From: Phytopythium helicoides
Lineage: Eukaryota > Oomycota > Peronosporomycetes > Pythiales > Pythiaceae
Length of the DNA stretch: 64,000 bases
Direction: 5' to 3'
NCBI GenBank assembly: GCA_024867545.1
Contig: JANFNE010000005.1
Location: 186,001 to 250,000, forward strand
Part shown: piece by piece, positions 219 through 50,284 of the stretch
Layout of the letters: every line of letters starts with the position of its first letter
Numbering within the stretch: the first letter of the stretch is position 1
Position numbers and translations under genes: made by a program
Notes under the pieces: model-generated
What the model saw: only the letters and a program-made list of their open reading frames with translations
Database searches by the model: none
Told to the model about the DNA's origin: nothing

Positions 219-3200
219 TCAATACAACAGCCGTTCCACGGCCTCCTTGTGTGAGTAGTCACCCGTCGTCGACGCCAACACAGGCGGAGACACCTGCACC
301 ACGCTCGCACCAAACTGCGGGTGCGACACCAGCAGCGAGAACGCAGACACCTTCTCGATCAGGTCCCCGTTGATACCCACATAGTCGAACTTGCCCAGCA
401 CATCCGTGTACCCGTCCTTGTAGAACTCGCTCTCCACCTTCGACTTGGACGCACACCCTGATCCCGATCCAGACACCGATCTCGACCCAGACACGCGAGC
501 ATACACCTTGACGTAGCACGAGCGCACGGGACACCCCGCGTGCAGCACCTGCACCAGTCCCAGCTGCGGCATCGGAGTCACGTGCAGTCGCGAGTTGAAG
601 TACGCTCGCATCACCTCCACATGGGGTGCCACCGACTCGATGGTGCGTCCAGCGCTCGATACCTCACGCACGCGCACCATCATCTGCGTGTTGGCGAGGT
701 CGCTCGGGATGGATACAGACCGAGTGACGATGGCCGTCTCGGCAGACACGCTCGAGCTCGAGTCCAGCAGCTCCACAACCATTCGCTGTCGCGGCTCGAT
801 CAGCATCGCACTTGACACGGACGACGAGGATGACGACTTCGACTTCGACTTTGACGATGAATCGGACATGGATCCGGACACCGCTGACAACCCACATCCA
901 TCCGTGCCATCCGCAAATGTGTTGAACGGATCCGTAGAGAACATCCGCTCGACGTCGATCGGGTAGAACAGCACCTCCACAGCACGCAGGCACTGGGACG
1001 TCACGCGGATGCTCGATCCCACCACAGTCGCGTCCAGACGCACCTGTGGTCGAGCCACGGGGTTCCCCATTGCATCGTCGTCGTTGGTGTCATTGCCAGA
1101 TGTGGACGAGTGACCCACCAACACGCCGCCGCTCTCGTCGTCCGTCGCGTCGGACAAACCCATGCGATCGAGACGTTGCAATTTCTGCACCTCGAACAAG
1201 TCATACTCGTCCACCACCTCCTTCAGTTTCTGGAATCGCTCGCTCCATCGTGGATTCGGATGGTGCAGGTGTTTCTCCACGACCTCGCGAGCGACACCAA
1301 ACTTGATGATATTGACACTCGAGGTGGTGACACCGTCACGGACGGTGGTGTCGTCTCGTACGAGGTCGAGGTATCCTCTCAAGTAGTCGAACTGGACGCT
1401 GTCGGTGATGTCAGCACGTTTATCTTGTGACAGTGCCTCGAGACGACCGAACACCTCAAGTGCCTCTCGTGTCCAGTTCAGCAACACCAAATAGTATGTG
1501 AGCACAAACAGATGCTGAGCACTCAGAGTCGAGTACATTCCGAGACGGAGGCATAGGTCGTGAAAGTACTGTCGCGTTGGTTCATTGGGAATACGCTCAT
1601 CGGGAGAAGTGATGGAAGGGCCAGACACTTTCGTGCCGGAGACTCCATTCTCGACAATAGTGCCGGTGACGGGATGAGCTCGCTGGCTCAAGAATGGTCC
1701 GAACTCGGTGTGGTCGAAGCGTTGAGCACGATCGATGTAGCTGTCGCACTTGTAGAGCAGACTTGTATCGACGAATGACGTGAATAATCCCTCACCAATC
1801 GATTGAAGAAAGCTGGGAGAGCTTTGAAGAAACTCCGCGATACCCTGCTCATCCCCGTGTAGGAGCGAGTACTTCCACACACCAGGCTCGAAGCGCACTA
1901 TCTGGCGAAGTGAAGATGTCAACCCATTGTAGAACGCAGCGTCCTCGCACCTCCACAATAGTCGAGTGACATCTTCGTCCCTCTTGATGTCTGAAGCCAA
2001 TATATACTGGCTGATATCATCCAATGACCCGCGAACACAAATATCGGACCATGTGACCAGCTTCGTCTCGGATGGCGTGCGGACAACACGCAGTTTGCGG
2101 GTAGATGTATCGCTCGCACCGATGCTGTTCGCTCCCGCCCACGCAACTACTTGTCCACCGATCGAGACATGCGCCGGATAGTGTTCGAACTCTCCAGCTT
2201 CCGGAAAGTAAAAGCTGTACGTGAAGTCACTCGATCTTTTCGAATTCACCCAGGTCGTCTTCCCCTTTAGATAAAACGCTGACTTGCTCAAAGGAATGGC
2301 ACCTTGTGGAATCTGCATCAACACATTGACGTCGAGTGCATCCTCATCGCCAACATTGTTGATCGTCACCTTGCACGAATAGATCCTGTGAACCACGAAT
2401 TCGTCACTAACAATCTCTGGCTTGTATCGACGTGGACGTCTATCATTTAGGGCTCCTGATAAGTATGTTTGTGTGACAATCAACTGAGAAGCTGAAGTCG
2501 CAGCCATATCCACGTCGGCGGGTGCCAGACTTCGATGATACAATAGCATATCGCTGGCTGCAACCAGCCGCACTCGGTTCTCTGACAGTTGCTCGCGTTC
2601 AGTGCGAGGAGGATCAATCTCAAGGTCGAGCACAGCGAGTGCTAGGAGCCCTTCCGAAAACGAAGTCAGCGCTTCGGGTATAAACGACGATACGAATGAC
2701 TGTTTTGTAGAGTGATGTCCAGCAAGGTACTTTGCATACTCCACCCAAAACTCGTTCGCACCAGCAAACGAGCTACCAGAGCTCCGCCGCTCATTGACTC
2801 GGCGCACCTTCCCGGCTTGGATATATGACTCATCCACCTTGCAGTCAGATCGGGTCCGCTTTTTTGACAAATCAGGTTTCTCTTCTTCATCGTCATCATC
2901 GCTCGGAATACTTCTCACACCGAAATCGTCATCGATGATCTCTGGTTCAGATACCGTTATTGGTGCCTCTTGGCTTGGATTAGCTGCTTCACGCGACAGT
3001 CCGGGCATACAGTGATACAGCTGATTCTCCGGACGATTCCACGGTGCAATTGAAGCACCATGGGAGAGAACCGTCTCAAACATCCGACGAAGGGACTTGT
3101 CATCCCTTGACATCTTAATACTTTTGCGCATCTTGGACATCGTAGCCTCACTCATATAGCTCGTCCAATCGGCTGTTGTCTTGGACACAACTGTTGCAAT

Positions 3201-6200
3201 CGTTAACAGTCTCTCGATCGGTCGCAACTGATGGAACATAGCTGAAGTCAAATAGAACCGCTGGAGTGCCGCCACATCCTCCAAAACACAGTAGTCCAGC
3301 AGCGTCTTCCCAACCTTCGACTGAACCAGAGGTCTCACAATCTTGTCAAAGAACGCGCGATCCTTCTTGAACAGAAAGAAGTTGAACTCGTCACTTGCGT
3401 TTCTATCAGAAAACCCATCTTTTCGAAAGTAGAATTTCACCTTCTCAGCGATCGTCAATTGGAACCATTTCTTCAATGTCTGCACAAAGGAGTCCTTATA
3501 GCAATTCGATATCGGCATCCACAAGTCCAACACATCGCTCAGCGTCTCATACACACCAATTTGACACCCAGGCATGATTTCTAGCACACGCTCGTCACCA
3601 CCCTGTACCCATTCGTGATGGATAGTCTGCTGGAAATGTTGGTCCTGCGGCAATGAATCGACAGATGATAAGCGGAGATCCCGTAGTCTCTCTGGCTTTT
3701 CGACGGTAGGGTTCTGCACCAAAGTCATTGACACGCTGTGTTGACCACTTGCAGAGTCGATCGCAAGCGTCACGACTTCCAAATCACCAAAGCTGCTATC
3801 AAAATCGGACAGCGGCAATTCAATACGGACAACTGCATCCAGATCGACCACACAATGAGTAGATACCATCAAGCCAGCACGAAGGAAGCCAATGCTGGGT
3901 TCAGAGAGCTCCACCGCCTTCTTTTCATCCTTTGCAGTAGCCGAATTCGAGGTCTCAGTCTTCGCCACCTTCGCATCTGACACATCGTCACCATCCGCCA
4001 CAACCACAACCTCCATATCCGATTGAGACACCACCACCGGATTCTGGATCAGCGTGGGCTTCGACGCAGTATAAGGTCCACTCAAAACAGGACCACTTGA
4101 TCCATCTGCACCAGATGACACCATTAACGCACGACGACGTAGAATGTAGGCGTACTCGTCACCGAGCTTCCGAGCCTTCAAATACCGGTTCTCAAACACC
4201 TTCGTCGTGAACTCCGTCGACATCAATACACCACCACCTGACCCGGATACAAACGGCGTCCCATCATCACTCGCGGACTCCAATGCCATCTCCGCACGCG
4301 CATTCCACGGACCCACAAACCGCTTCACAAACACCACGACCCGTGTCGATCCAGCAACGGCATTACGCAGCTCCACTTCCAAATGTGCGGTCGATTGAGA
4401 GGAAAACCCACCATTCGAAGATGAACCATCATTATCGCTGACTTTTGAAGTAGCGACTGTATCCCACACCACGCGCTGAGACGCTATCATCAACGGAGCT
4501 CGTAACGTAGACAGGAACACGGTTGGCGATTGCACCAGCGCATCGACGCCTAACGGCGCCAGCTTCTTCTTGCTTCCAAACGCCTTCACGGTACATTTGA
4601 GTGACAGTGGACGGACCACAACCACAAACGTGCCGGGTCTGTTCACTGTAGCAGAAACACCGATGGCTTCATTCTCACGATTTCGAATCGTGGTCACGCT
4701 AGACCCACCGTCACCGCTTCGGACTGGTTCGAGCACTCCAGATCCCTTCTCACTCAACTCAATCACTCGATATAGACCAATTTTACCGTCTGCGAGCCAC
4801 CGATCCACATCACTTGAGTACGCAACTGGAATAGGAAACTCGACCGTCTCTCCAATCGCACAATGTACTTTCGTCAAGGGGTGCTGAATGTGTGTGTTCG
4901 GGAGCTGCCACTTCCACATCGGGTCTTTCTTCTTTCCACTCGGCAATGTCATGGCGAGCCTAATGATGTCTTTGAGCTCACCAAGATGAATTTCTCCGTT
5001 CAGGTCACTTTGCAGGACTCTCCTGGTTGGTTTTGCAAAGTTTTTGTTTACAAAATAGCACAGCGCCCCAATGTCCGGGATGCGTTCGCCGTTGTGACCG
5101 AGGATCTGTACTGTGTAGACGCATGACCCACTACTACCACCACCATTAACTTCAGCACACTTTCTCACCAGATGCGGAGTCCACACAGTATCATGTCGAC
5201 TGATGTCGTGCACCTTGAAAGTCTTCGTATCTCTCAGGTCACTCATATAAACGACACCTCTTTCATCAACTTCCCTTGACGAAGGCACACGAGCAGTCAG
5301 CTCAACAGAGAGGGACACACAGTCCTTCGGGATGTCGAAGACCACCGGAGATCGAAGAAAATCCTCGACCGACCCGAATCGCTCCTCATGACGCTCATTA
5401 CTCGCAACTGCGCGGCCATCGTTGTCATAGTGCTCGAACTTCACAGTCATCTCGATATCCGTGAGCGGACCCAGCTCAACTTGTTGAGAAAGACGCCCAT
5501 TACAGGAGACATGCAGCTGAGTCACGAGATTCGCACGAGCGCCAGGAAGAAGTTGCTCCGAGTCGATGTGCATTTTTGCATCCAAGCTGAACCAACCGTA
5601 GTGACGCTTGAATGATCGATGCAAAGAGCAAAAGGAGCCATCCGACACCATCAAAACATGATTCCCACTCGCTCTGGAGTTTTTGGACTGAAACGGGATT
5701 ACAATGATGCCTTCATCGTCGGACACATATTCCCGCCCCGCCTGACCTGGACTATCCAAATGAAGCAACGCCGCGCGAGAACCGCGAACGACATCGCCCA
5801 CTTCATCCAACACCACCAACTCGTGACCACGAGTCGTCAGACGCTCCACATAACGAAGAAAACCTCGACGCAAGATCGCGCGACAAGTCACACCCTTCTC
5901 CAAAATCTCCACCACATACACACCGCGCTTGCTCGCAGACCCAGCACCATCATCATCACCATTGCCACCACCCACAAACGCGATCGGCACACGAGCCTCC
6001 TGCCACTTACTCAGGTGACTCAAATCCACCACCACCTCCTCGTTCGGAAGCAACCCGTCCAGACACACGTCGCCGCGCACCTCGTGACGTAGACGAGAGT
6101 AGTATTCTTCCGTCTTGATCTCGTACAGGTGAGCGGTCAGCGACTGCACGTTCTTGATTCGCACGTGGATGACGAGCGGGTCTTGTGGTGCAAAGTAGGT

Positions 6201-7892
6201 GGGGTTGTACTGGCAGAAGGCGATGTCCGGTGTGGTGGACGCCGTGTCGGAGTCTAGCTCCTTGCCTTTTAGCGGCAGTCTCTCGATCCATGTGGCGAGA
6301 TCTCCTTGGCCGCTCTTGATCATTGCCATCGCTTGTTGGGTCGACAGCCACTCTTGACCCACAAACCCAGCAAGTGCGTCAAACACGCGCGACGAATCCA
6401 GACTCGAACCGAACAACGTCGAAACCGCGAGTTTCACAGCATCATCGTTCTGCAACTTGAGTGCGCCAGCTTGGATCGCGAGGTCTCGGTAGCTTGACGC
6501 CGACTCGGACGCAGTGCAACTGACATACCCCACCAACTTGGCGTACTCCACCAGTGCATCCAGCAAAGTGGAAATCGTATCCGGTTGAGCATAATACAGT
6601 GCCTGACGCAGATGCAGCTCTTCCAGACGAACGGACAGGCGCTCCTTGTTCAGCACCGACGAGAAGTGGGCCAGGAAACCAATGGATTGCTCCACGCCTG
6701 CCAGCTTTGTTCGCAACACCGTCGAGCTTCCTCCATTCAACACGCCACCAGATGCCTCCACCTCACCCTCGGTCGAGGAGCGGATGCGTTCCAACCCATG
6801 GCTTGCAAACGGGATATTGTCGCGGAACAAGTCAGGAGCGCGATCCAAACACTCCACGAGCTGTGACAGCGGCATCCGTTTGTGCAGGAGACGAAAGCCA
6901 AAACCACGATTGGTCGGCTGCGTTGATTCTCGCCGGACGTCTTCAATCACAGCCTCCACGAGTCCAGGGATGTCGGTGCATTCTGGAGCGAAATCCTCCA
7001 GGAACAGCTCGAGCACGGCCCAGCGCTTGTGTGCCGGCAGCTCGTCCTCCCCGGCCCTCACTACGCGAGCAAAGATGGTTTCACGAGTCTCGTTTCTGAG
7101 GTCGCTCACGAGAGCCTTGGCTTCCGAGATCGGACCACGCTTCAGTGCTTCCCACTTGACGTCCATGAGCGCACTCGTAGACACCACCGACTCCCTGACA
7201 CGACACCAATCACCAACGAGGCGTGAGTGTGAGAGCAACTACACAACTGCCATCGCGGCCGTGGAAAGACAGCAGCGCACTCTAGAACGGAGGCGTAGGA
7301 TTTGGCCATGCCTGCGACTGCGACCCCCACGTCCGCTGGAACAGGGTCGCTCAGCGTGATCTCCATGGAGCTCGCGATGCGCTGGCCGACCTCCTGTAGC
7401 ACCGCGTCCAAACAAACACAGATACAGCCACAACCACGTGAGCCACGTGAGCGAGCACCCCGTCCTCAGCACCGTCGATAATGCAGCGCGGCGCCTCACC
7501 GCCAGCTCGCCCCGAGGCGCGCGCGCCCTCCGCAGCAACTCCAGCTCCAGCACCAGCCGGCGACGCCGCAGCCGCGCCAGCTTCTTGGCGCACGCGTCCC
7601 GCTCCAGCCACCGCTCGGCGCGCTGCCGCAGTTGCTCGCTCTCACGCAGCGCCGCCCTGGCCTCCGCGTCGGCCCGCTCGTCGCCACGCTCCGCCAGCGC
7701 CTGTACCTCCAGCAGCGCGCACAGCGCCTCATAGTACGCACGCTCGCTCGTGTGAGGGGCCAGCGCCGCCGCCACCACCGCGCGCTTGGCTTGCACGTCG
7801 GCCGCCAGCGCCAGGCGCCGCGCGAACGCCACGCGCTCGTCCGCGCTCATCGCCGAGCCCTCGGCCGCCAGCTCCAGCTCCCAGCTCTCCAT
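219..7892 (-). CDS. MGL-1, giant macroglobulin-like protein, type A (2,493 aa)
   Basis: Model: complement of 219-7194, 7281-7393 and 7500-7892. The exon lengths sum to 2,494 codons including the stop. Intron 1 has a GTGAGG donor and CAG acceptor; intron 2 has a GTGCGC donor and CAG acceptor. The start at MESWEL is conserved in MGL-3 and MGL-4. No signal peptide or membrane segment is visible, so an intracellular location is inferred. Order: helical, charged N-terminus (1-170); two diverged N-terminal regions; an MG2-like core (around residues 448-635) with the YNPTYFAPQDPLVIHV motif; further beta-rich repeats; a helical block with DEFNFFLFKKDRAFF; an acidic hinge followed by KKRTR and KVRRVNERR basic patches; an FWVEYAKYLAG block; a beta domain with VLMQIPQGAIPL; TPR-like helices; and a C-terminal domain with CYVKVYARV and FYKDGYTD. 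No CxEQ thioester was seen. The order recalls bacterial MG2-domain giants, from memory only. The biochemical role is unknown. The reading frame is intact. Confidence 0.75.
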
Positions 7893-8313: not shown

Positions 8314-8703
8314 ATGGCGGAGCGAGACTTTGAGACGCTGCTGGCCGCCGAGGGCTCGGCGCTGAGCGCGGACGAGCGCGTGACGTTCGCGCAGCAGCTG
8401 GCGCTGGCGGCCGACGCGCAGGCCAAGCGCGCGCTCGTCGACCGCCGCCTGGCGCCAAACTCGCCCGAGTTCGTGTACCACGACGCACTTCTAGCGTTGA
8501 TGGAGATCGAGCAGCTGCTGGAGCGCGGGGCCGTCGAGGATGCGCGCACACTGCTCGAGCGCCGGAAGAGCGAGAGCGACGAGGCTGAGCGCGTGCTGCT
8601 GCTCGCGGGCTGCCACCGCCGGCTCAAGCGCGTGCAGCAGCGCCGTTTACTACTTGAACTGGACATGCAGCACCGACTGGGGGCGACGAGCGAGCAGCTC
8701 AAG

Positions 8704-8760
8704 GTGAGGGTTGACAGTGTTACAGCTCAAGACGAGGAGTGCTCAGCTGATTTATGGCAG
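8704..8760 (+). other. 57-nt in-phase intron 1 of MGL-2
   Basis: The sequence fits a phase-0 intron: AAG/GTGAGG donor, an internal CAGCTGAT branch-like site and a TATGGCAG acceptor. Its length is a multiple of three and it has no stop in frame, so retention would insert 19 residues. Splicing is preferred because it brings together residues that align with type A across its longer intron 1, giving ...LK/NSTERIAS against ...LA/EVGQRIAS. MGL-5 has the same 57-nt intron at 49838-49894. Confidence 0.65.
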
Positions 8761-9760
8761 AACTCTACGGAGAGAATTGCGAGTGCGCTAAATGTGAGCT
8801 TTGACGCGACTGAGCCACCGAACGCAGAAGTGTCGGCGAAAAAGCAGGCATATCCATCAGTGCTGCCGTGAGTTTTGCCAAGTTATCGATGTGCTGTCCT
8901 TTCAATGGATGGAGCACTGATCGTCGTGCTTGTGCAAATACAGGGAGTCGGAGGTGTCCACGGCGGCGATCGTGGAGAGAGAGTACTCCAGTCTGCTGTA
9001 CAAGTCGGTATACAGCGCCAAGACCGTTATATCGTCCATGGGGATTTTGCCGCGGGAGATGCTGTTCGAAAAGGTTGCGTACTCGTCCGACCTACCGGCT
9101 GAAACCCGCTGGGCTGTGATTGAGGCTTTCCTGGACGATGATGCCTTTGACTACACGCACCTCCCAGGCTTCCTGGACGTTGTGCTGGAAGATTTCAGGC
9201 GTGGAGAGAGCAACGCCGGTGGCAACAAGTTTGGCTTTCGCCAAGTACACGCAAAAATGCCACTTTCGCAACTGAAGCAATGCCTTCACCGTGAGCCAAA
9301 GCTGTTCCAGGACGACTTTGCGTTTGCCACACGCGCCATACAACTTATGTCCAGCAAAGCTTCGGACACAGTTGATGGTCTACTCGATATTAAAGGAAGC
9401 GAGCCCTGGCTTCGGAAAGAAATCGAGCGTGCTCAACAGTGCCTGGAGTTTCTTGAAGCGTTTTCGAAAGCACTAAGCAACTTGCGGTTCACCATTTGCA
9501 AGGAAGAGCTGCAATTTCAGGTTCACTTGTATTGGGTTTGCCATGAAACCGGTACGGGACTTCTCGGATCGGCTGTAAAGTATGCGAAAATAGTGGGAGA
9601 GCTCAATTGTTTTTCAACCGAAGAGGCCTCAGGCTATCATGAGCTGGTGATTAGTTCTGGTATGCCAATTCTACACCAAGATCAAGCATTCAAGGACGCC
9701 GTCGCCACGCTCTTTCAATCAACTATTGGTACAAGCGCAATTTTTGAGTCTCTAGGGCAC

Positions 9761-10325
9761 TTTGTGGGTCAAGAGTGGCTATCGACCCAACAAGCGATGG
9801 CAATGATCAAGAGCGGCCAAGGAGATCTCGCCACATGGATCGAGAGACTGCCGCAAAAAGGCAAGGAGCTAGACTCCGACACAGCGTCCACCACACCGGA
9901 CATCGCCTTCTGCCAGTACAACCCCACCTACTTTACACCACAAGACCCGCTCGTCATCCACGTGCGAGTCAAGAACGTGCAGTCGCTGACCGCTCACCTG
10001 TACGAGATCAAGACGGAAGAATACTACTCTCGTCTGCGTCACGAGGTGCGCGGCGACGTGTGTCTGGACGGGTTGCTTCCGAACGAGGAGGTGGTGGTGG
10101 ATTTGAGTCACCTGAGTAAGTGGCAGGAGGCTCGTGTACCGATCGCGTTTGTGGGTGGTGGCAATGGTGATGATGATGGTGCTGGGTCTGCGAGCAAGCG
10201 CGGTGTGTATGTGGTGGAGATTTTGGAGAAGGGTGTGACTTGTCGCGCGATCTTGCGTCGAGGTTTTCTTCGTTATGTGGAGCGTCTGACGACTCGTGGT
10301 CACGAGTTGGTGGTGTTGGATGAAG
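9761..10325 (+). repeat. near-identical MG-core tract shared by all five MGL genes
   Basis: From TTTGTGGGTCAAGAGTGGC to GTTGGATGAAG the nucleotide sequence is nearly identical in MGL-1 (about 5807-6365, reverse), MGL-2, MGL-3 (17970-18535), MGL-4 (about 40075-40640, reverse) and MGL-5 (about 48272-48836, reverse). Immediately outside, types A and B fall back to clearly diverged sequence. It encodes the MG2-like core with the FCQYNPTYF motif. Confidence 0.85.
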
Positions 10326-13019
10326 CGTGGCGAATTGCTTCACGGAACGAGTGCAGTTGTGCTGAGTACAAGCAGTCGTGGGCAACAAGGGCGGGAATAC
10401 ACTGCTAATGAGGACGGACTGATCATCATACCATTTCGACCTGCGGTTGTGCCTAGCCAGAACGAGAAGTTTGCTTTGATGCTATGTGCTGACTCTTTCG
10501 CATTTTTTCACGGTTCGTTCGCGTACGCTCCAGAGAGTTTCAGTTTCTACGCTGGAATGCATATCGATGCAGAACAGTTGATACCTGGTGCAAAGGCGCA
10601 GCTGTCAATCTTCGGGCTTCGTCTCAACATTTATGGAGGGAAAGTCGGTTTGGAAAGATTGGTCTCCATCGAACTGGAGATGAACTTTGCTCTTTCTGGT
10701 GGGGACGGAGGTGGCGAAAACTCAAGCAAGATCGTTCACACGTTTTCGTCGATCGACCAGCTCCTTGAGTCAATGCTTGCATTTGACATCCCATTGGACG
10801 CAGAAGCTGTCACGAGCACTCTTCGAGCTCGAGTGGCTACTTCCAGCTCTACGCTTGTATTGGACATGAACAAGCTCCCATCTGTGACTAGCTCTGCGAC
10901 GTTTGAAGTACAGAAAGTGAGTCGGTACACAACAACGCACACGCCACACCTTATTCGCAAGCCTTCCACATCAGGATCGAGCGACGAGTTTAGTGTTCTT
11001 GTTCTCGGCCATAATGGCGAGGAGATCCCTGGAGCAATGTTGGACTTCACCATCTGGAACCAATTTTTTGACTCGCCAATCAAGGTAAAACTGCAAGCTG
11101 ACGATCATGGAGAAGTGAGGCTTGGGCCATTGAAACATATTACCAAAGTGCGTGTTGATCTTCCGGCGCGATCGAACCAGGCATCATGGTCGTGGCAATT
11201 GCCTAATCTGTTACAGCATGCTTTGCCTAATGTACGCTGCGAAGCTGGCAAAACAGTTGAAGTTCCGATCCCGCCTGCGTACTCCCAAGAGATCGAAACA
11301 TGGCTCACGACGGGTCGGATTCGTGTGTTCGAGGTGGTAAGTGTAAAGGGCAAAAGTGATGAGGTATTCGAACCTGCAGATCACGATGTACAGCTTACTG
11401 TTATCAAGAGTAGCAATGGCGTAGCTGGCGGGATTGGGATAAAGATTGACCGGCCTGGAAACTTCGAGCTACAAGTTCGCCCGCTTCAGATCCAGTGCAA
11501 CTTGACGATTTGCTCCCAAAAGAAGTATATATCGCCAATCTCAACAGCTCTTCTTTTCAGGGGCGAGAAAATGCTGCTTCCGTCATTCGGAGCGCCACTT
11601 ATGATACTGTCGCAACGTGTAACGACACACGGAACGAAGGAGAGCGCTGTCTTGGAAATTGAGCTTCGCAATGCCACCGAGACTACCACTCGCATCGTCA
11701 TATTTTTCAAGCATTTCCTGGACGCAAATGGGCAGGCTCTCAGCTTAACTCCTGATCGATCGTCACTGCCAAGGATGTCATTCTCGACAACACTCTTTGA
11801 CAATGAGTACCTGAAGAAACGGGCGATCAGTGACGAGTACGCGTACATTCTTCAACGACGCGCTTTGATTGCATCCGGGGGTGCGCGTCGAGGTGGAGGA
11901 CCAAGTGGTGTCCCAAAGCCAACGTGGATCCAGAATCCATATGTGCATTCATCATCAGATATGGAGGTGGTGACCGTTGCTGACGGAGATAAGGTGACTG
12001 GCTTCAACGAAAACTTGTCGCGTAGCGCCGACAAAGACGACGTGATGGAGATGAAAAAAAAGAAGCGAAAGGAGCCAGCAAGTTCGCTACGCTCGTCGTC
12101 GTAGCTCACCAAGCAGTGTGTCTACCTTCTCGCCAAGTATTTCTTTCCTTGGTACCACATCGATCAGTGTGCAAGCTAATGTTCCTGCCGATGGTAAGGT
12201 CATTGTTGATTTGAGCTCCATTCTAGGCGTAGAGCTGGAAGGAAAAGAAACATGCTATCAGGTCGTGTCGGTGGCGTGGGATTCAAACACCGGAGAAGCT
12301 GCAATGCTCGAGTCCAGCGCTGTCATTGGACAGGGCAGTAACAAGAGTGCTGTTCCGAAACGAGACATTACCCTGTCCGAGGTCGAGGCTCTGGCACCAC
12401 AAGAACACTTCCATCAGGCTGACCAGCATGAGTGCGTCTACAACGGCGAAGAGAGATCGCTCACGCGGACATTCGGTAGCACGTATGCTCTGTACCAGTC
12501 ACTTGGAGACGTCGCTGATCTATGGACGACACTGTCATCTGAATCGGAAGCCAGAACCCTCGCAGAAGTTGTGAAGACATGGAATAAGCGGAGCGAAGTT
12601 TCGAAGCGAGACTTCTACTACAGCAACGCATGCGATGAGCTCAACTTTTTCCTGCTGAAGAAAGATCCTGGTTTCTTTGAGCAGCACGTGAGACCCATAG
12701 TGGCTGGTAAGATCACCAAGTCGTTTATGGATCACTATGTGCTACGCGATAGTGCACAACTGGAGCTAAACTATCTTCGAATCGGTGTCTTTCATGAGAT
12801 GAGCGTTATTGAGAAGCTTCTTCTGGCCGAATCCCTGAATGATTCTGCTAAAACAATCAGAATTTGCGATGCTGTGATTCGCGCGATTGACTCGAAAAAG
12901 GACTCGGGAAATGGCATTACGCTCACAAAATTGTATAATGCAGTTCTGTCACAAGGTTTGGTGACAATTGAAGTTGTCATCGGCGAAGAAATTGTGGAAG
13001 CTTCTACAGAATGTTGTAT

Positions 13020-24120: not shown

Positions 24121-24185
24121 TGTGTGAACGATAGACGCAGGCTATAATGATCTAGTTATTGCCTGAAAGCCTTGTTCTAGTAGTG

Positions 24186-29823: not shown

Positions 29824-29847
29824 CTAAATGAAAGATCAAGGTGTTGT

Positions 29848-37400: not shown

Positions 37401-40400
37401 GCGAATCTTGGAAATCGTAGCCTCACTCGTATAGCTCGTCCAATCGGCTGTTGTCTTGGACACAACTGTTGCAATCGTTAACAGTCTCTCGATCGGTCGC
37501 AACTGATGAAACATACCTGAAGTCAAATAGAACCGCTGGAGTGCTGCCACATCCTCCAAAACACAGTAGTCCAGCAGCGTCTTCCCAACCTTCGACTGAA
37601 CCAGAGGTCTCACAATCTCGTCAAAGAACGCGCGATCCTTCTTGAACAGAAAGAAGTTGAACTCGTCACTTGCGTTTCCACCAGAAAACCTATCTCTCTC
37701 AAAGTAGAATTTCACTTTCTCAGCGATCGTCAATTGGAACCATTTCTTCAATGTCTGCACAAAGGAGTCCTTATAGCAATTCGATATCGGCATCCACAAG
37801 TCCAACACATCGCTCAGCGTCTCATACACACCAATTTGACACCCAGGCATGATTTCTAGCACACGCTCGTCACCACCCTGTATCCATTCGTGATGAATAG
37901 TCTGCTGGAAATGTTGGTCCTGCGGCAAAGAATCGGCAGATGATAAACGGAGGTCCCGTAGTCTCTCTGGTTTTTCGACGGTAGGGTTCTGCACCAAAGT
38001 CATTGACACGCTGTGTTGATCAGTTGCAGAGTCGATCGCAAGCGTCACGACTTCCAAATCACCAAAGCTGCTATCAAAATCGGACAGCGGCAATTCAATA
38101 CGGACAACTGCATCCAGATCGACCACACAATGAGTAGCTACCATCGAGCCAGCACGAAGGAAGCCAATGCTGGATTCAGAGAGCTCCACCGTCTTCTTTA
38201 CATCCTTTGCAGTAGCCGAATTCGAGGTCTCAGTCTTCGCCACCTTTGCATCTGACACACCGTCACCATCCGCCACAACCACAACCTCCATATCCGATTG
38301 AGACACCACCACCGGATTCTGGATCAGCGTGGGCTTCGACGCAGTATAAGGTCCACTCAAAACAGGACCACTTGATCCATCTGCACCAGATGACACCATT
38401 AACGCACGACGACGTAGAATGTAAGCGTACTCGTCACCGAGCTTCCGAGCCTTCAAATACCGGTTCTCAAACACCTTCGTCGTGAACTCCGTCGACATCA
38501 ATACACCACCACCTGACCCGGATACAAACGGCGTCCCATCATCACTCGCGGACTCCAATGCCATCTCCGCACGCGCATTCCACGGACCCACAAACCGCTT
38601 CACAAACACCACGACCCGTGTCGATCCAGCAACGGCATTACGCAGCTCCACTTCCAAGTGTGCGGTCGATTGAGAGGAAAACCCATCATTCGAAGATGAA
38701 CCATCATTATCGCTGACTTTTGAAGTAGCGACTGTATCCCACACCACGCGTTGAGACGCTATCATCAACGGAGCTCGTAACGTAGACAGGAACACGGTTG
38801 ACGATTGCACCAGCGCATCGACGCCTAACGGCGCCAGCTTCTTCTTGCTTCCAAACACCTTCACGGTACATTTGAGTGACAGTGGACGGACCACAACCAC
38901 AAACGTGCCGGGTCTGTTCACTGTAGCAGAAACACCGATGGCTGCATTCTCACGATTTCGGATCGTGGTCACGCTAGACCCACCGTCACCACTTCGGACT
39001 GGTTCGAGCACTCCAGATCCCTTCTCACTCAACTCAATCACTCGATACAGACCAATTTTACCGTCTGCGAGCCACCGATCCACATCACTTGAGTACGCAA
39101 CTGGAATAGGAAACTCGACCGTCTCTCCAATCGCACAATGTACTTTCGTCAAGGGTTGCTGAATGTGTGTGTTCGGGAGCTGCCACTTCCACTTCGGGTC
39201 TTTCTTCTTTCCACTCGGCAGGATCACAGTGAGATTGGTGATGTCTTTGAGCTCACCAAGATGAATTTCTCCGTTTGAATCACTCCTCAAATTCACCTTG
39301 ACCGACTTCGAGAAATAGACATTGCGGAATCGGAGCTGAACCACAATGTCCGGGATGCGTTCGCCGTTGTGACCGAGGATCTGTACTGTGTAGACGCATG
39401 ACCCACTGCCACCACCATCATTAGTTTCAGCACACTTTCTCACCAGATGCGGAGTCCACACAGTATCATGTCGACTGATGTCGTGCACCTTGAAAGTCTT
39501 CGTATCTCTCAGATCACTCATATAAACGACACCTCTTTCATCAACTTCCCTTGACGAAGGCACACGAGCAGTCAGCTCAACAGAGAGGGACACACAGTCC
39601 TTCGGGATGTCGAAGACCACCGGAGATCGAAGAAAATCCTCGACCGACCCGAATCGCTCCTCATGACGCTCATTACTCGCAAATACGTAGCCATCGTTGT
39701 CATAGTGCTCGAACTTCACAGTCATCTCGATATCCGTGAGCGGACCCAGCTCAACTTGTTGAGAAAGACGCCCATTACAGGAGACATGCAGCTGAGTCAC
39801 GAGATTCGCACGAGCGCCAGGAAGAAGTTGCTCCGAGTCGATGTGCATTTTTGCATCCAAGCTGAACCAACCGTAGTGACGCTTGAATGATCGATGCAAA
39901 GAGCAAAAGGAGCCGTCCGACACCATCAAAACATGATCCCTACTCGCTCTGGAGTTTCTGGACCGAAACGGGATCACAATGATGCCTTCATCGTCGGACG
40001 CATATTCCCACCCCGCTTGGCCTGGACTCTCCGGATGAAGCAATGCTGCGCAAGAGCCACGAACGACATCGCCCACTTCATCCAATACCACCAACTCGTG
40101 ACCACGAGTCGTCCGACGCTCCACATAACGAAGAAAACCTCGACGCAAGATCGCGCGACAAGTCACACCCTTCTCCAAAATCTCCACCACATACACACCG
40201 CGCTTGCTCGCAGACCCAGCACCATCATCATCACCATTGCCACCACCCACAAACGCGATCGGCACACGAGCCTCCTGCCACTTACTCAGGTGACTCAAAT
40301 CCACCACCACCTCCTCGTTCGGAAGCAACCCGTCCAGACACACGTCGCCGCGCACCTCGTGACGTAGACGAGAGTAGTATTCTTCCGTCTTGATCTCGTA

Positions 40401-42167
40401 CAGGTGAGCGGTCAGCGACTGCACGTTCTTGACTCGCACGTGGATGACGAGCGGGTCTTGTGGTGCAAAGTAGGTGGGGTTGTACTGGCAGAAGGCGATG
40501 TCCGGTGTGGTGGACGCCGTGTCGGAGTCTAGCTCCTTGCCTTTTAGCGGCAGTCTCTCGATCCATGTGGCGAGATCTCCTTGGCCGCTCTTGATCATTG
40601 CCATCGCTTGTTGGGTCGACAGCCACTCTTGACCCACAAACCCAGCAAGTGCGTCAAACACGCGCGACGAATCCAGACTCGAACCGAACAACGTCGAAAC
40701 CGCGAGCTTCACAGCATCATCGTTCTGCAACTTGAGTGCGCCAGCTTGGATCGCGAGGTCTCGGTAGCTTGACGCCGACTCGGACGCAGTGCAACTGACA
40801 TACCCCACCAACTTGGCGTACTCCACCAGTGCATCCAGCAAAGTGGAAATCGTATCCGGTTGAGCATAATACAGTGCCTGACGCAGATGCAGCTCTTCCA
40901 GACGAACGGACAGGCGCTCCTTGTTCAGCACCGACGAGAAGTGGGCCAAGAAACCAATGGATTGCTCCACGCCTGCCAGCTTTGTTCGGAACACCGTCGA
41001 GCTTCCTCCATTCAACACGCCACCAGATGCCTCCACCTCACCCTCAGTCGAGGAGCGGATGAGTTTCAACCCATGGCTTGCAAACGGGATATTGTCGCGG
41101 AACAAGTCAGGAGCGCGACCCAAACACTCCACGAGCTGTGACAGCGGCATCCGTTTGTGCAGGCGACGAAAACCAAAACCGCGATTGGTCGGCTGCGTTG
41201 ATTCTCGCCGGACGTCTTCAATCACAGCCTCCACGAGTCCAGGGATATCAGTGTATTTTGGAGCGAAATCCTTCAGGAACAGCTTGAGCACGGCCCAGCG
41301 CTTGCGTGCCGGCAGCTCGTCCTCCCCGGCCCTCACTACGCGAGCAAAGATGGTTTCACGAGTCTCGCTTCTGAGGTCGCTCACGAGAGTCTTGGCTTCC
41401 GAGATCGGACCACGCTTCAGTGCTTCCCACTTGACGTCCATGAGCGCACTCGTAGACACCACCGACTCCCTGACACGACACCAATCACCAACGAGGCGTG
41501 AGTGTGAGAGCAACTACACAACTGCCATCGCGGCCGTGGAAAGACAGCAGCGCACTCTAGAACGGAGGCGTAGGATTTGGCCATGCCTGCGACTGCGACC
41601 CCCACGTCCGCTGGAACAGGGTCACTCAGCGTGATCTCCATGGAGCTCGCAATGCGCTGGCCGACCTCCTGTAGCACCGCGTCCAAACAAACACAGATAC
41701 AGCCACAACCACGTGAGCCACGTGAGCGAGCACCCCGTCCTCAGCACCGTCGATAATGCAGCGCGGAGCCTCACCGCCAGCTCGCCCCGAGGCGCGCGCG
41801 CCCTCCGCAGCAACTCCAGCTCCAGCACCAGCCGGCGACGCCGCAGCCGCGCCAGCTTCTTGGTGCACGTGTCCCGCTCCAGCCACCGCTCGGCGCGCTG
41901 CCGCAGTTGCTCACTCTCACGCAGCGCCGCCCTGGCCTCCGCGCCGGCCCGCTCGTCGCCACGCTCCGCCAGCGCCTGTACCTCCAGCAGCGCACACAGC
42001 GCCTCGTAGTACGCGCGCTCGCTCGTGTGAGGCTCCAGCGCCGCCGCCACCACCGCGCGCTTGGCTTGCACGTCGGCCGCCAGCGCCAGGCGCCGCGCGA
42101 ACGCCACGCGCTCGTCCGCGCTCATCGCCGAGCCCTCGGCCGCCAGCTCCAGCTCCCAGCTCTCCAT
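34485..42167 (-). CDS. MGL-4, giant macroglobulin-like protein, type A (2,496 aa)
   Basis: Model: complement of 34485-41469, 41556-41668 and 41775-42167. It joins to 2,497 codons without interruption, with the same introns as MGL-1. Most of the protein is nearly identical to MGL-1, including leader, introns and 3' end. Several short blocks are different and look like replaced cassettes: IPDIVVQLRFRNVYFSKSV instead of the CYF.NKNFAKP version (39220-39355), RQFILTSEPGIVEKV (36225-36285), and a wholly different hinge with CVIPGEVDINHEQSSQEYQ and an 11-residue poly-Glu run made by GAA/GAG codons. In the shared tracts it carries the same variants as its neighbour MGL-5 (VERRTTRG, VVGTSIRV, VEVMFYP). 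Function unknown, no thioester, no signal peptide. Confidence 0.78.
37146..37182 (-). repeat. GAA trinucleotide run in the MGL-4 hinge
   Basis: An uninterrupted run of about 11 CTT/GAA-type triplets on the coding strand encodes poly-Glu. MGL-1 and MGL-3 have only 3-4 Glu after several Asp at the same place, so this is a copy-specific expansion in the hinge. Confidence 0.8.
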
Positions 42168-42630: not shown

Positions 42631-45600
42631 CTAATACAACAGCCGTTCCACGGCCTCCTTGTGTGAGTAGTCACCCGTCGTCGACGCCAACACAGGCGGA
42701 GACACCTGCACCACGCTCGCACCAAACTGCGGGTGCGACACCAGCAGCGAGAACGCAGACACCTTCTCGATCAGGTCCCCGTTGATACCCACATAGTCGA
42801 ACTTGCCCAGCACATCCGTGTACCCGTCCTTGTAGAACTCGCTCTCCACCTTCGACTTGGACGCACACCCTGATCCCGATCCAGACACCGATCTCGACCC
42901 AGACACGCGAGCATACACCTTGACGTAACACGAGCGCACGGGACACCCCGCGTGCAGCACCTGCACCAGTCCCAGCTGCGGCATCGGAGTCACGTGCAGT
43001 CGCGAGTTGAAGTACGCTCGCATCACCTCCACATGGGGTGCCACCGACTCGATGGTGCGTCCAGCGCTCGATACCTCACGCACGCGCACCATCATCTGCG
43101 TGTTGGCGAGGTCGCTCGGGATGGATACAGACCGAGTGACGATGGCCGTCTCGGCAGACACACTCGAGCTCGAGTCCAGCAGCTCCACAACCATTCGCTG
43201 TCGCGGCTCGATCAGCATCGCACTAGACACGGACGACGAGGATGACGACTTCGACTTCGACTTTGACGATGAATCGGACATGGATCCGGACACCACTGAC
43301 AACCCACATTCATTCGTGCCATCCGCAAACGTGTTGAACGGATCCGTAGAGAACATCCGCTCGACGTCGATCGGGTAGAACATCACCTCCACAGCACGCA
43401 AGCACTGGGATGTCACGCGGATGCTCGTTCCCACCACAGTCGCGTCCAGACGCACCTGTGGTCGAGCCACGGGGTTCCCCATTGCATCGTCGTCGTTGGT
43501 GTCATTGCCAGATGTGGACGAGTGACCCACCAACACGCCGCCGCTCTCGTCGTCCGTCGCGTCGGACAAACCCATGCGATCGAGACGTTGCAATTTCTGC
43601 ACCTCGAACAAGTCATACTCGTCCACCACCTCCTTCAGCTTCTGGAACCGCTCGCTCCACCGTGGATTCGGATGGTGCAGGTGTTTCTCCACGACCTCGC
43701 GAGCGACACCAAACTTGATGATGTTGACACTCGAGGTGGTGACACCGTCACGGACGGTGGTGTCGTCTCGTACGAGGTCGAGGTATCCTCTCAAGTAGTC
43801 GAACTGGACGCTGTCGGTGATGTCAGTACGTTCATCTTGTGACAGTGCCTTGAGACGACCGAACACCTCAAGTGCTTCCTCCATTTTGTCCAGCATGATC
43901 ATATAGTACGTGAGGACCACAAGATGTGTTGCTGTCATCTTTGTAATCATGCCTAGTCGGAGGCACAGTTCGTGGAAGTATGCTCGTGCTTCAGCATTGA
44001 GTATCCGATTTCCAGAGTCTCCCACCCTCGTGGTCGAACCAAGTGTCCCTGGTGTCTGAATGCGGCCAGCGATTGAGTGGGTGCGACGACCAAGGTAAGG
44101 CCCGAATTCGACATGATCAAAGCAGGCTGAATCCTCAATGAAGTGCTCCCAGTGATAGAGTTGCTTCGTGCCAGCAATGGCCGTGGAGATCCCGTTTCCA
44201 ATAGAGCAGAGGAACTCATTCGAGCTTCCTAAGTACTCCTTCGAAGTTTGGATATCTCCATGGCGTAACGAATATTTCCACAGCGCGCGGCTGAACATCA
44301 TGTTGTCGCGCAAGTAGGAGGATAATCCCTTGAAAAAATCCGCATCTTCACATCTCCACTGCAAGTCGGCGATCCTTGTCTTTGGGTTGCTGTCCAAGTA
44401 GCGGCAAATATCGGCCAAAGATCCTCGCGCGCAGACATCTGACCACGAGGTAAGATTGATCTTTGTTGCTTCGCGAACAACATGGAGCTTTTGTGGGGAA
44501 TGGCCGAGGTCGGACCCACCCGCCCACGCAGCAACTTTTCCTTCGATCGAGGCACGAGCCAAGTAGTGATCAAAGTCGCCTATCGCTGGGAAGTAAAAGT
44601 CATACGTGAGTTTCTTCGATGAGTTTGAAGGAATACTCATGGTTTCGCTCTTGGTGTAAAATCCTGTGGTTGACAGTGGAATTGCTCCCTGAGGAATCTG
44701 CATCAACACATTGACACTCTGACTTCCTGATTCGCCAATATTGCTGATGGTCACAATCCCCGAGTAAATTTTGTGCACCACAAGTTCAAAGAGACCATCA
44801 TCACCCTTGGTGCACTCACTTCCATCCGAAGCGTTGACAATAGTTTGCTTGATGATAATGTCCACGTTGGGAGATGCGATGGATTCAGCTGGAACAATAC
44901 TGCGGTGGTACAACACAAGGTCGCTTGCTGCAACTAGGCTCAACTGGTTCATCGACCCACCAGCAGCTTGCTTGATCTCGGTTCGAGGTGCATCCACCTT
45001 CATATCAAGGACTGAAACGGCAAGAATCCCTTCTGTCAACGAAGTGAGAGCTTCAGGGAAGTATGACGACAGAAACGGTCGAAGCGGTGCTCGACTCCCA
45101 GATTCCGCGACGACTTTCACATGCCAAGCATAGTCCCTCCAAAAGCTGTTGGTTCCGTCGATGTTTTGGCGTTGTGCTGTGTAGAAGCGCTTTTCGTGTA
45201 CTCTCCGCACTTTTCCTGGCTTGATATAGGCCGTGTCCAGCTTGGCATCGCGGCGACGCTTTAAACTCTCATCACCCTCATCATCCTCATCGTCGTCACT
45301 GCTGTCGATGCTTTGCACACCATAATCGTCTTCGTCATCATCATCATCATAGTCGACGTATCCCGACTTTGGGTGTGATTGTGGCGCCCCAAAGAGTGAA
45401 GATTGGTCTGGGGCCAACGGGGCAGTACTCATTTGAGCTGACAAACGGGGCAGAGCAGCTATATCCCTTAAATATTGACCAGTATGGTAAGATCTTGCTC
45501 CGCGCCCGCGCCCACGTCCGCGCCCTCCCATCAACGTTGGAATAGGTTCGACACAACCTACTCTATTTCTCGGTGAATCTCGAGAAATCTTTGAGTAGTT

Positions 45601-48600
45601 ACAGCCACCAGACGCGTAATCATCCTCAACGGCAAGCGTTACCTTTACTTGTGATAGAACTGCATTATACAATTTTGTGAGCGTAATGCCATTTCCCGAG
45701 TCCTTTTTCGAGTCGATCGCGCGAATCACAGCATTGCAAATTTTGATAGTTTTACCAGAATCATTCAGGGATTCGGCCAGGAGAAGCTTCTCAACAACAC
45801 TCATCTCATGAAAAATGCCGATTTGAAGATAGTTCAGCTCCAGTTGTGTACTATCCCGCAGCACATAGTGATCCATAAACGACTTGGTGATCTTGCCAGC
45901 CACTATGGGTTTCACGTGCTGCTCAAAGAAATCAGGGTCTTTCTTCATCAGGAAAAAGTTGAGCTCGTCGCATGCGTTGCTGTAATAGAAGTCTCGCTTC
46001 GAAACTTCGCTCCGCTTATTCCAGGTCTTCACCACTTCTGCGAGGGTTCTGGTTTCCGATTCAGATGACAGTGTCGTCCATAGATCAGCGACGTCCCTAA
46101 GTGACTGATACAGTGCGTATGTGCTACCAAATGCCCGCGTGAGCGATCGCTCTTCGCCGCTGTAGACACACTCATGCTGGTCAGCCTGATGGAAGTGTTC
46201 TTGTGGTGCCAGAGCCTCGACCTCGGACAGGGTAATGTCTCGTTTTGGAATAGCACTCTTGTTACTACCGTGTCCAACGACAGCGCTGGACTCAAGCATC
46301 GCAGTCCCTCCGGTGTTTGAATCCCACGCCACCGACACGATCTGATAGCATATTTCTTTTCCCTCGAATTCCTCTCCCAAAACGAGGCTCAAATCAACAA
46401 TGACCTTACCGTCGGCAGGAACATTAGCTTGAATGCTGATCGATGTGGTACCAAGGAAAGAGATACTTGGTGAGAAGGTAGACACACTGTTTGGTGAGCA
46501 ACGTCGACGAGCGTAGCGAACTTGCTGGCTCTTTCGCTTCTTTTTCATCTCCACCACGTCGTCTTTGTCGGCGCTACGCGACAAATTTTCGTTGAAGCCA
46601 GTCACCTTATCTCCGTCACCAACGGTCACCACTTCCATATCCGATGATGAATGCACATTTGGATTCTGGATCCACGTTGGCTTTGGAACACCACTTGGAC
46701 CTCCACCTCGACGCCCACCCCCGGATGCAATCAAAGCGCGTCGTTGAAGAATGTACGCGTACTCGTCACTGATCGCCCGTTTCTTTAGGTACTCATTGTC
46801 AAAGAGAGTTGTCGAGAATGACATCCTTGGCAGTGGTGATCGATCAGGAGCTAAGCGGAGAGCCTGCCCATTTGCATCCAGGAAATGTTTGAAAAATATG
46901 ACGACGCGGGTCTCATTATCAGTGGCATTGCGAAGCTCAATTTCCAAGATGGGACTCTTTTTCGTTCCGTGCGTCGTTACACGTTGCGACAGTATCATAA
47001 GTGGTGCTCCGAATGACGGAAGCAGCATTTTCTCGCCTCTGAGAAGAAGAGCTGTTGAGAGGGGGGATATATACTTCTTTTGGGAACAAGTCGTCAGGTT
47101 GCACTGGATCTGAAGCGGGCGAACTTGTAGCTCGAAGTTTCCAGGCCGGTCAATTTTTACTCCAATCCCACCAGCTACGCCATTGCCACTCTTGATAACA
47201 GTAAGCTGTGCATCGTGATCTGCAGGTTCGAATACCTCATCACTTTTGCCCTTCACACTCACCACCTCGGACACACGAATTTGACCCGTCGCGAGCCATG
47301 TTTCAATCTCTTGGGAGTAAGCAGGTGGGATCGGAACTTCAACAATTTTGCCAGCTTCGCAGCGTACATTTGGCAAAGCATGCTGCAACAGATTAGGCAA
47401 TTGCCACGACCATGATGCCTGGTTCGATCGCGCCGGAAGATCAGCACGGACTTTGGTAATATGTTTTAGTGGCCCAAGACTCACTTCTCCATGATCGTCA
47501 GCTTGCAGTTTTACCTTGATTGGCGAGTCAAAAAATTGGTTCCAGATAGTGAAGTCCAATATTGCTCCAGGGATCTCTTCGCCATTATGGCCGAGAACAA
47601 GGACGCTAAACTCGTCGCTCGATCCTGCTGTGGAAGGCTTGCGAATAAGGTGTGGTGTGTACGTTGTTGTGTACCGGCTCACTTTCTGTACTTCGAACGT
47701 CGCAGAGCTAGTCACAGATGGCAGCTTGTTCAAGTCCAACACAGGAGTAGAGTTGGAAGAAGCCACTCGAGCTCGAAGAGTGCTCGTGACAGTTTCTGCG
47801 TCCAACGGGATCTCAAATGCAGGCATTGACTCAAGGAGCTCGTCGATCGACGAAAACGAGTGGACGATCTTGCTTGAGTTTTCGCCACGTCCGTCCCCAC
47901 CAGAAAGAGCAAAGTTCATCTCCAGCTCGATGGCAACCAATCTTTCCAAACCGACCTTGCCTCCATAAATGTTGAGACGAAGCCCGAAGATTGACAGTTG
48001 CGCCTTTGCACCAGGTATCAACTGTTCGGCATCGATGTGCATTCGAGCATAGAAGCTGAAACTCTCTGGAGCATACGCGAATGACCCATGAAAAAATCCG
48101 AAAGAGTCAGCACATAGCATCAAAGCAAACTTCTCGTTCTGGCTAGACACAACAGCAGGTCGAAATGGTATGATGATCAGTCCGTCCTCGTTAGCAGTAT
48201 ATTCTCGCCCTTGTTGCCCACGACTGCTTGTACTCAGTACAACTGCATTCGTTCCGTGAACCAATTCGCCCGCTTCATCCAATACCACCAACTCGTGACC
48301 ACGAGTCGTCCGACGCTCCACATAACGAAGAAAACCTCGACGCAAGATCGCGCGACAAGTCACACCCTTCTCCAAAATCTCCACCACATACACACCGCGC
48401 TTGCTCGCAGACTCAACACCATCATCATCACCATTGCCACCACCCACAAACGCGATCGGCACACGAGCCTCCTGCCACTTACTCAGGTGACTCAAATCCA
48501 CCACCACCTCCTCGTTCGGAAGCAACCCGTCCAGACACACGTCGCCGCGCACCTCGTGACGTAGACGAGAGTAGTATTCTTCCGTCTTGATCTCGTACAG

Positions 48601-50284
48601 GTGAGCGGTCAGCGACTGCACGTTCTTGACTCGCACGTGGATGACGAGCGGGTCTTGTGGTGCAAAGTAGGTGGGGTTGTACTGGCAGAAGGCGATGTCC
48701 GGTGTGGTGGACGCCGTGTCGGAGTCTAGCTCCTTGCCTTTTAGCGGCAGTCTCTCGATCCATGTGGCGAGATCTCCTTGGCCGCTCTTGATCATTGCCA
48801 TCGCTTGTTGGGTCGACAGCCACTCTTGGCCCACAAAGTGCCCTAGAGACTCAAAAATTGCGGTCGCACCAATTGGTGATTGAAAGAGTGTGGCGACGGC
48901 CTCCTTGAATGCTTGATCTTGGTGTAGAATTGGCGTACCAGAACTAATCACCAGCTCATGGTAGCCTGGGGTTTCTTTAGTTGAGAAGCAATGGAGCTCT
49001 CCCACTATTTTCGCATACTTCACAGCCGATCCGAGGAGCTCCGAACCGGTTTCATGGCAAACCCAATACAAGTGAACCTGAAATTGCAGCTCTTCCTTGC
49101 AAACAGTGAACCGCAAGTCATTTAGTGCTTTCGAAAACGCTTCAAGAAACTCCAGGCATTGTTGAGCACGCTCAATCTCCTTCCGAAGCCAGGGCTCGCT
49201 TCCTTTAATCTCGAGTAGACCATCAACTGTGTCCGAAGCTTTGCTGGACATAAGTTGTATGGCGCGTGTGGCAAACGCAAAGTCGTCCTGGAACAGCTTT
49301 GGCTCACGGTGAAGACATTGCTTCAGTTGCGAAAGTGGCATTTTAGCGTGTGCTTGACGGAAGCCAAACTTGCTGCCACTGGCGTTGCTCTCTTCACGCT
49401 TGAAATCTTCCAGCACAACATCCAAGAAGCCTGGGAGGTGCGTGTAGTCAAAGGTATCGTCGTCCAGGAAAGCCTCAATCACAGCCCAGCGGGTTTCAGC
49501 CGGTAGGTCGGACGAGTACGCAACCTTTTCGAACAGCATTTCCCGTGGCAAAATCCCCATGGACGATATAACGGTCTTGGCGCTGTATACCGACTTGTAC
49601 TGTAGACTGGAGTACTCTCTCTCCACGATCGCCGCTGTGGACACCTCTGACTCCCTGTATTTGCACAAGCACGACGATCAGTGCTCCATCCATTGAGGGG
49701 ACAGCACATCGATAACTCTGCAAAACTAACGGTAGCACTGATGGATATGCCTGCTTATTCGCCGACACTTCTGCGTTTGGTGGCTCGGTCGCGTCAAAGT
49801 TCACATTTAGCGAACTCGCAATCCTCTCCGTAGTGTTCTGCCATAAACCAGCTGAGCACTCCTCGTCTTGAGCTGTAACACTGTCAACCCTCACCTTGAG
49901 CTGCTCGCTCGTCGCCCCCAGTCGGTGCTGCACGTCCAGTTCAAGCAGTAAACGGCGCTGCTGCACGCGCTTGAGCCGGCGGTGGCAGCCCGCGAGCAGC
50001 AGCACGCGCTCAGCCTCGTCGCTCTCGCTCTTCCGGCGCTCGAGCAGTGTGCGCGCATCCTCGACGGCCCCGCGCTCCAGCAGCTGCTCGATCTCCACCA
50101 ACGCTAGAAGTGCGTCGTGGTACACGAACTCGGGCGAGTTTGGCGCCAGGCGGCGGCCGACGAGCGCGCGCTTGGCCGGCGCGTCGGCCGCCAGCGCCAG
50201 CTGCTGCGCGAACGCCACGCGCTCGTCCGCGCTCAGCGCCGAGCCCTCGGCGGCCAGCAGCGTCTCAAAGTCTCGCTCCGCCAT
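42631..50284 (-). CDS. MGL-5, giant macroglobulin-like protein, type B (2,506 aa)
   Basis: Model: complement of 42631-49654, 49731-49837 and 49895-50284, a complete frame of 2,507 codons. Intron 1 is 57 nt (GTGAGG to GGCAG) and intron 2 is 76 nt (GTTAGT to ACAG). The start at MAERDFETLL is conserved with MGL-2. The N-terminus is helical and charged like type A (ALSADERVAFAQQLALAAD). The core at 48272-48836 and the last 1.24 kb are almost identical to type A, but the other regions differ at many residues. The hinge has GGRGRGRGRGARS followed by DYDDDDDEDDYG and a KRRRDAK basic patch. The helical block DELNFFLMKKDPDFFEQHV and the VLMQIPQGAIPL domain are both present. This is the only intact type B copy in the window. 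Role unknown; intracellular location is inferred from the lack of a signal sequence. Confidence 0.78.
45440..45600 (-). other. RG-repeat hinge cassette of MGL-5
   Basis: The hinge encodes PTLMGGRGRGRGRGARSYH, an RG/RGG-type run of the kind that binds RNA and is arginine-methylated in other proteins. It occupies the place where MGL-2 has CTD-like heptads and FG motifs. Sequence immediately downstream (SSLFGAPQSHPKSGYVDYD) is shared between both B copies. Confidence 0.8.

Follow-up and report, generated by a model that had tools for sequence, protein, structure and literature searches.

CAGE forms hollow tetramers of identical subunits, about 1 MDa in size and with D2 symmetry, described from Tetrahymena and from Dictyostelium, where it is AbpF (McCafferty et al. 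2025, bioRxiv preprint, PMC12485934). According to the preprint, homologues exist in PVC bacteria as well as in Thermodesulfobacteria and Oomycota; Pfam domains are absent, and signal peptides are found in most bacterial but not in eukaryotic members. Two domains have their best Foldseek hits to alpha-2-macroglobulin, the fold as such was called novel, and the function is given as unknown. Roles as a chaperone or as a container were proposed, and varied interactors were reported. The Tetrahymena paralogues were cross-linked only to themselves, and the preprint reports neither heteromers nor substrate density.

The second group of related systems comprises the bacterial alpha-2-macroglobulins, such as SaA2M of Salmonella and ECAM of Escherichia coli, also called YfaS. 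Complement C3/C5 and the animal alpha-2-macroglobulins are secreted proteins.

The window, meaning the whole stretch of 64,000 bp from Phytopythium helicoides analyzed here, originates from a 49-Mb assembly of 100 contigs and contains between positions 219 and 50284 five homologous giant gene copies, one of them broken (Table 1). An initial annotation of the same DNA had described five paralogues of about 2,500 residues. This holds for the homology of all five and for the size of the four intact copies, but the frame of g2 is disrupted. The spliced models of g1, g3, g4, and g5 have one terminal stop each, and both introns have the same positions and phases (0, then 2) in the A and B subtypes, as had been claimed. 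The coding sequence, previously given as about 38 kb, amounts to about 37.5 kb once the broken g2 is included. With the gene order g1(−) g2(+) g3(+) ... g4(−) g5(−), the two tandem pairs g2-g3 and g5-g4 face each other with about 10 kb of other genes between them. The “strict” pairing of B then A proposed before is thus correct for these four genes but not for g1, a lone A copy positioned head-to-head with g2. No extra copy was found up to 10 kb outside the window on either side.

Table 1. Features of the gene cluster; positions are those of the window, domains and loops are predicted
Feature	Position	Strand	Remarks
g1, subtype A, intact	219..7892	−	exons 7892-7500, 7393-7281, 7194-219; 2,493 aa
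g2, subtype B, frame-disrupted	8314..15968	+	pseudogene or assembly error
g3, subtype A, intact	16442..24120	+	exons 16442-16834, 16937-17055, 17142-24120; 2,496 aa
g4, subtype A, intact	34485..42167	−	exons 42167-41775, 41668-41556, 41469-34485; 2,496 aa
g5, subtype B, intact	42631..50284	−	exons 50284-49895, 49837-49731, 49654-42631; 2,506 aa
GTGACGTCA element of g1	7990-7999		upstream of ATG
GTGACGTCA element of g3	16346-16354	+	upstream of ATG
GTGACGTCA element of g4	42256-42264		upstream of ATG
GTGACGTCA element of g5	50358-50366		upstream of ATG
Conversion tract 1	17965..18552	+	g3 aa 446-641; high-identity run
Tract 1 counterparts	5801-6365 (g1), 9761-10325 (g2), 40076-40640 (g4), 48258-48837 (g5)		
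Conversion tract 2	22867..24117	+	g3 aa 2080-2496; corresponding tracts of the other copies are 3'-terminal
MG-type beta-sandwich core	18097..20637	+	g3 aa 490-1336; matches bacterial alpha-2-macroglobulin residues 155-1020
Longest low-confidence loop, first model	20221..20421	+	g3 aa 1198-1264; inside MG8-like domain, bait-region position
Divergent segment	20350..21549	+	g3 aa 1241-1640; P. insidiosum paralogues diverge, as do A and B
Beta domain	21736..22251	+	g3 aa 1703-1874
Helical domains	22312..23184	+	g3 aa 1895-2185
C-terminal module	23278..24051	+	g3 aa 2217-2474; matches NIE-MG1 of E. coli alpha-2-macroglobulin

A sequence element, GTGACGTCA, was located 74 to 98 bp 5' of the ATG in all four intact genes. 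Seven matches were counted with 1.14 expected, and these represent five sites, two being read on both strands; one site (36487) is inside the coding sequence of g4. The promoters, which had been described as conserved, indeed share this element at the four intact genes, but the site nearest to g2 is about 315 bp upstream, in the divergent region between g1 and g2.

The statement that no described eukaryotic system has this layout did not stand, and an interpretation as an undescribed family was dropped, since the CAGE preprint names Oomycota and presents the same domain order (PMC12485934). By eye and from secondary structure, the 15 domains of CAGE1 are colinear with the window proteins in the order alpha, alpha, beta sandwiches (with the split domain 8), alpha (split), beta, alpha, alpha, and beta. 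In the window models as in CAGE, the halves of domain 8 flank a loop and those of the helical domain 11 flank an acidic linker; domain 1 corresponds to exon 1, which is outside the two models compared with the CAGE boundaries. The lengths of the window proteins are slightly above the range of Tetrahymena CAGE but in the same class, with about 1,900 to 2,400 aa published for the family, and the absence of Pfam domains is shared. Moreover, one relative of the window proteins, P0033, carries the name “Actin-binding protein F,” which is that of the Dictyostelium CAGE. Because the domain order fits part by part and because of the name of P0033, the window genes are filed with high confidence as members of the CAGE family, an assignment made from the published description and this name. 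Unlike CAGE as described in the preprint, the window genes form a tight five-copy cluster with two subtypes, conversion tracts, and one broken copy. In the literature searched, as far as it was at hand, no prior description of the oomycete cluster, the conversion tracts, or the divergent segment was found.

Structure prediction agrees with the macroglobulin-like nature assumed in the initial annotation. MG-type sandwich domains were predicted, and chains of the alpha-2-macroglobulin superfamily top the structural lists (Foldseek, VIA) for both halves of the protein. Prediction of the core and the C-terminal domains, which had been proposed as a check, yielded the MG core and the NIE-MG1-like module, but the model of the second half is only moderate (pLDDT 66.5, pTM 0.55). 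The whole-chain TM-scores of Foldseek were low (0.08 to 0.18, first half, best 25 rows) and the best VIA superpositions had an rmsd of 7.4 to 14.9 Å, which indicates a correspondence of domains in order and not of one rigid body. Residues 1739 to 1876 of g3 match residues 804 to 911 of complement C3 (2a73_B), with unrelated sandwiches matching nearly as well. The loop in the MG8-like domain has a pLDDT under 50 (model residues 1027 to 1093) and is positioned as is the bait region of the E. coli protein, which is in MG8; low-confidence loops of the models may nevertheless be linkers and not bait. At the sequence level, no MG2 (Pfam) match was obtained in an exon-by-exon search of the own genome, no Pfam family over cut-off in three exon-3 proteins and no NCBIfam family in two, and no PDB match with one protein and two profiles. 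Among the Foldseek rows listed, the deposited CAGE structure did not occur.

What the window proteins share with the bacterial alpha-2-macroglobulins is the fold and arrangement of the MG core, a predicted loop in MG8, and the NIE-MG1-type module. In contrast to them, the window proteins have no thioester motif and no hydrophobic N-terminus, possess in addition an N-terminal solenoid, carry the NIE-MG1-like module C-terminally, and differ in the helical domains. Complement C3/C5 and the animal alpha-2-macroglobulins share MG-type domains and appear as Foldseek hits, at 8 to 14% identity in the aligned parts. On the basis of these models, derivation of the fold from alpha-2-macroglobulin is very likely. 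This suggests that much of the CAGE fold is the alpha-2-macroglobulin frame in its usual order, contrary to the novel fold of the preprint. An internal duplication, with the first MG module equal to the C-terminal module, was rejected at the sequence level (hhalign E 0.0012, probability 19%, with one of 14 control comparisons scoring better) and is kept as a structural likeness only.

The characterization of the products as giant, intracellular, and thioester-free is in agreement with the N-termini and the missing CxEQ. This motif is absent from the intact window models (0/4) and occurs at unrelated places in five of 123 family sequences, with CxEN in two more. No hydrophobic N-terminal stretch was found in g1, g3, and g5, with best 12-residue mean hydropathies of 1.24, 1.24, and 1.09, respectively, and the start of g4 differs from that of g1 in few residues. 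This argues against a signal peptide, as claimed before, and a cytosolic location may be inferred.

Protein searches yielded 44 relatives. The closest among those with a name are oomycete proteins, including Phytophthora and Pythium homologues. A genome scan confirmed at least 574 of at least 583 matched stretches, and 80 loci were kept. Among the matches listed, the bacterial relatives belong to Planctomycetota, Verrucomicrobiota, Lentisphaerota, Riflebacteria/Ozemobacter, Thermodesulfobacteriota, Myxococcota, and a few others. Proteins on short transcript-like contigs (such as P0028, P0032, P0036, and P0042), one EukProt entry (P0043), and a ZZ-zinc-finger protein (P0044) are, as we read them, relatives from other protists. 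The ZZ zinc finger at residues 338 to 380 of P0044 was the only Pfam match over cut-off among 11 family proteins scanned.

N-termini were scored by hydropathy with a threshold of 1.8 set by the authors, which is not a signal-peptide predictor. Of 75 open loci among the matches listed, six were truncated at the start. A hydrophobic N-terminus was present in 64 of the 69 bacterial loci assessed, a low count because L072, with a start resembling a signal peptide, was scored as lacking it owing to an anchor that truncated the sequence, and in none of 11 proteins taken as eukaryotic. The homologues from Gram-negative bacteria thus mostly possess a hydrophobic N-terminus and the eukaryotic ones do not, as published for CAGE. 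The bacterial members without it are L024, L025, L043, L045, P0005, P0006, P0007, and P0014. Seven of these eight are in the tree and form, together with L038 (start cut off), one clade of eight rows with a support of 100, and these sequences suggest a loss of export in this clade. As to the origin of the eukaryotic copies, the branch that separates the 14 rows taken as eukaryotic from the others has a support of 0. When 818 ORFs flanking the 80 loci were clustered, with loci without a recognised core ORF skipped, there was no shared neighbor that would indicate a bacterial operon; the largest cluster was kinase-like, from 11 loci and at mixed positions. Candidatus Uabimicrobium amorphum (L019, L028) harbors two gene copies at distant sites of one chromosome.

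The A genes are 90.9 to 93.8% identical among themselves and 54.4 to 55.2% identical to g5. The two retained subtypes proposed before are therefore distinct overall, but not within two blocks, where A and g5 share 86 to 100% of the residues in 60-codon bins. The dS of A versus g5 was 0 to 0.063 in tract 1 (measured at aa 476-590) and 0.028 to 0.072 in tract 2 (aa 2105-2496), compared to 1.35 to 1.42 at aa 1-460 and saturation at aa 640-2080 outside the tracts. Likeness at synonymous sites cannot result from selection at the protein level and is naturally explained by gene conversion. The blocks comprise the end of the solenoid with the first MG module and the last helices with the C-terminal module. 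In a tree of 1,110 columns outside the tracts, A and B form one clade (support 100) located beside Phytophthora (support 92). Since A and B group, the split between them arose, for the species sampled, after divergence from the Phytophthora and Pythium lineages.

The divergent segment contains the end of the bait-like loop, the rest of MG8, a helical domain, and the acidic linker. In 40-aa bins, the Pythium insidiosum proteins P0027 and P0031 are 91 to 100% identical at g3 aa 321-1200, 86% at 1201-1240, 25 to 60% at 1241-1640, and again 93 to 100% at 1641-2280. In the trees, the two are separated by a distance of about 2.17 for the divergent segment versus 0.026 for the columns outside the tracts. 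Differences between them also occur at aa 81-320 and at the C-terminal end, for which an error of gene prediction may be responsible. The A and B proteins of the window are 22 to 53% identical in the bins of the segment, being diverged elsewhere too over most of the length, and do not group in a tree of the segment alone. Another oomycete pair, P0024/P0025, showed no such mosaic, which was thus present in one of two pairs examined besides the window.

With g5 as reference, the frame of g2 breaks near 10328, 12063, and 13886. The identity of both DNAs is 93.0% (7,175 of 7,712 aligned bases). Four of five g2 pieces, each in its own frame, have a dN/dS of 0.19 to 0.32 versus g5, which means that g2 was constrained until recently or that the breaks are assembly errors; the fifth piece, the short exon 1 with very few changes, gave 1.78. 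The first break is at the edge of conversion tract 1, as if left by conversion or by an assembly junction. At about 13044-13110, in the linker region, g2 has an extra stretch compared to g5, near repeats reading SPTSPAY, which presumably resemble the heptads of the RNA polymerase II tail.

The explanation considered rather probable as a whole is that these are CAGE-family genes of an oomycete, forming a set specific to its lineage. Their products would each be cytosolic and thioester-free, constructed on the beta-sandwich frame of the bacterial alpha-2-macroglobulins. The helical N-terminal solenoid would be followed by the MG core, into which the bait-like loop is inserted, then by a helical domain whose acidic linker is disordered, the beta domain, further helices, and, C-terminally, the NIE-MG1-like module. 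Judging from CAGE of Tetrahymena and Dictyostelium, assembly into a hollow tetramer of about 1 MDa is likely also in P. helicoides. A protease or another client might meet the exposed bait-like loop or the linker and be held or screened non-covalently by physical enclosure, a way of working that is for itself rather doubtful. Parts of the shell would be common to the paralogues by gene conversion and the bait-like segment strongly different, which would give A cages another trigger or client than B cages. A role in triggering or client recognition would suit the bait-position loop and the divergence that surrounds it. Only tentatively, CAGE may be an ancient thioester-free branch of the alpha-2-macroglobulin superfamily that is cytosolic in eukaryotes and that became a small family of cages in oomycetes, where conversion holds parts of the shell while a segment of about 400 residues diversifies toward trigger or client specificity, maybe in co-assembling products. 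CAGE has a structure without a function, and the link to the alpha-2-macroglobulin domain order together with paralogues differing mainly in one segment provides places to look for it, namely, the bait-position loop and the helical/linker segment. A fold best known from extracellular proteins is thereby extended to a giant intracellular one.

Alternatively, CAGE may act as a chaperone that folds or holds other proteins, or as a container of general use, with the loops as mere tethers and the divergence of the paralogues due to relaxed constraint, and the chance of this is close to even. The preprint itself proposes such roles and reports varied interactors (PMC12485934). Fast evolution is frequent in disordered segments, and even g1 and g4, which are similar elsewhere, differ in the linker (one bin with 27% identity). 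On the other hand, chaperones do not typically have a core of the alpha-2-macroglobulin type with a loop at the bait position, and the divergent segment includes a folded helical domain and not loops alone. The present evidence suits a chaperone or container no less than a trap. If A and B formed mixed cages instead, conversion would keep the contact surfaces the same. Its confinement to two blocks in the window species agrees with that, but a match of these blocks to contact surfaces is a guess, the near-identity in P. insidiosum spans far more than two blocks, and the Tetrahymena paralogues were self cross-linked only (PMC12485934), all of which makes mixed cages unlikely. The cross-links of Tetrahymena also bear on the suggestion of the initial annotation that the products may act jointly.

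The breaks in g2 and the mosaic in P. insidiosum would both be artefacts if assembly or annotation had failed. Inverted near-identical copies are indeed difficult to assemble, and P0031 seems to be mis-annotated at its C-terminus (16% in bin 2281-2320). Nevertheless, P0027 and P0031 are located on different contigs (39,556 and 219,598 bases) and in each of them the divergent stretch remains alignable as homologous protein, so that an artefact is improbable. That the products are secreted or surface alpha-2-macroglobulins acting as ordinary protease inhibitors agrees with the structural match to the E. coli and Salmonella proteins. Of the traits of thioester inhibitors, MG-type sandwiches are present in the models, and a disordered loop is predicted at the position equivalent to that of the bait region in MG8. 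The missing CxEQ in the four intact genes, the N-termini, which are not hydrophobic, and the lack of Pfam families over cut-off or of MG2 in the exon-by-exon genome search make this possibility extremely improbable.

The genes surrounding the copies were also inspected. Between the two gene pairs, ORFs at 29848-33681 encode a cytochrome b5 domain and the N-terminal region of RME-8. Beside the cluster, 55136-60893 contains an ORF of 1,434 aa with TPR matches under cut-off and an ankyrin-repeat ORF, and two divergently oriented ORFs immediately outside the window (L081 7125-9419) look related to one another by eye.
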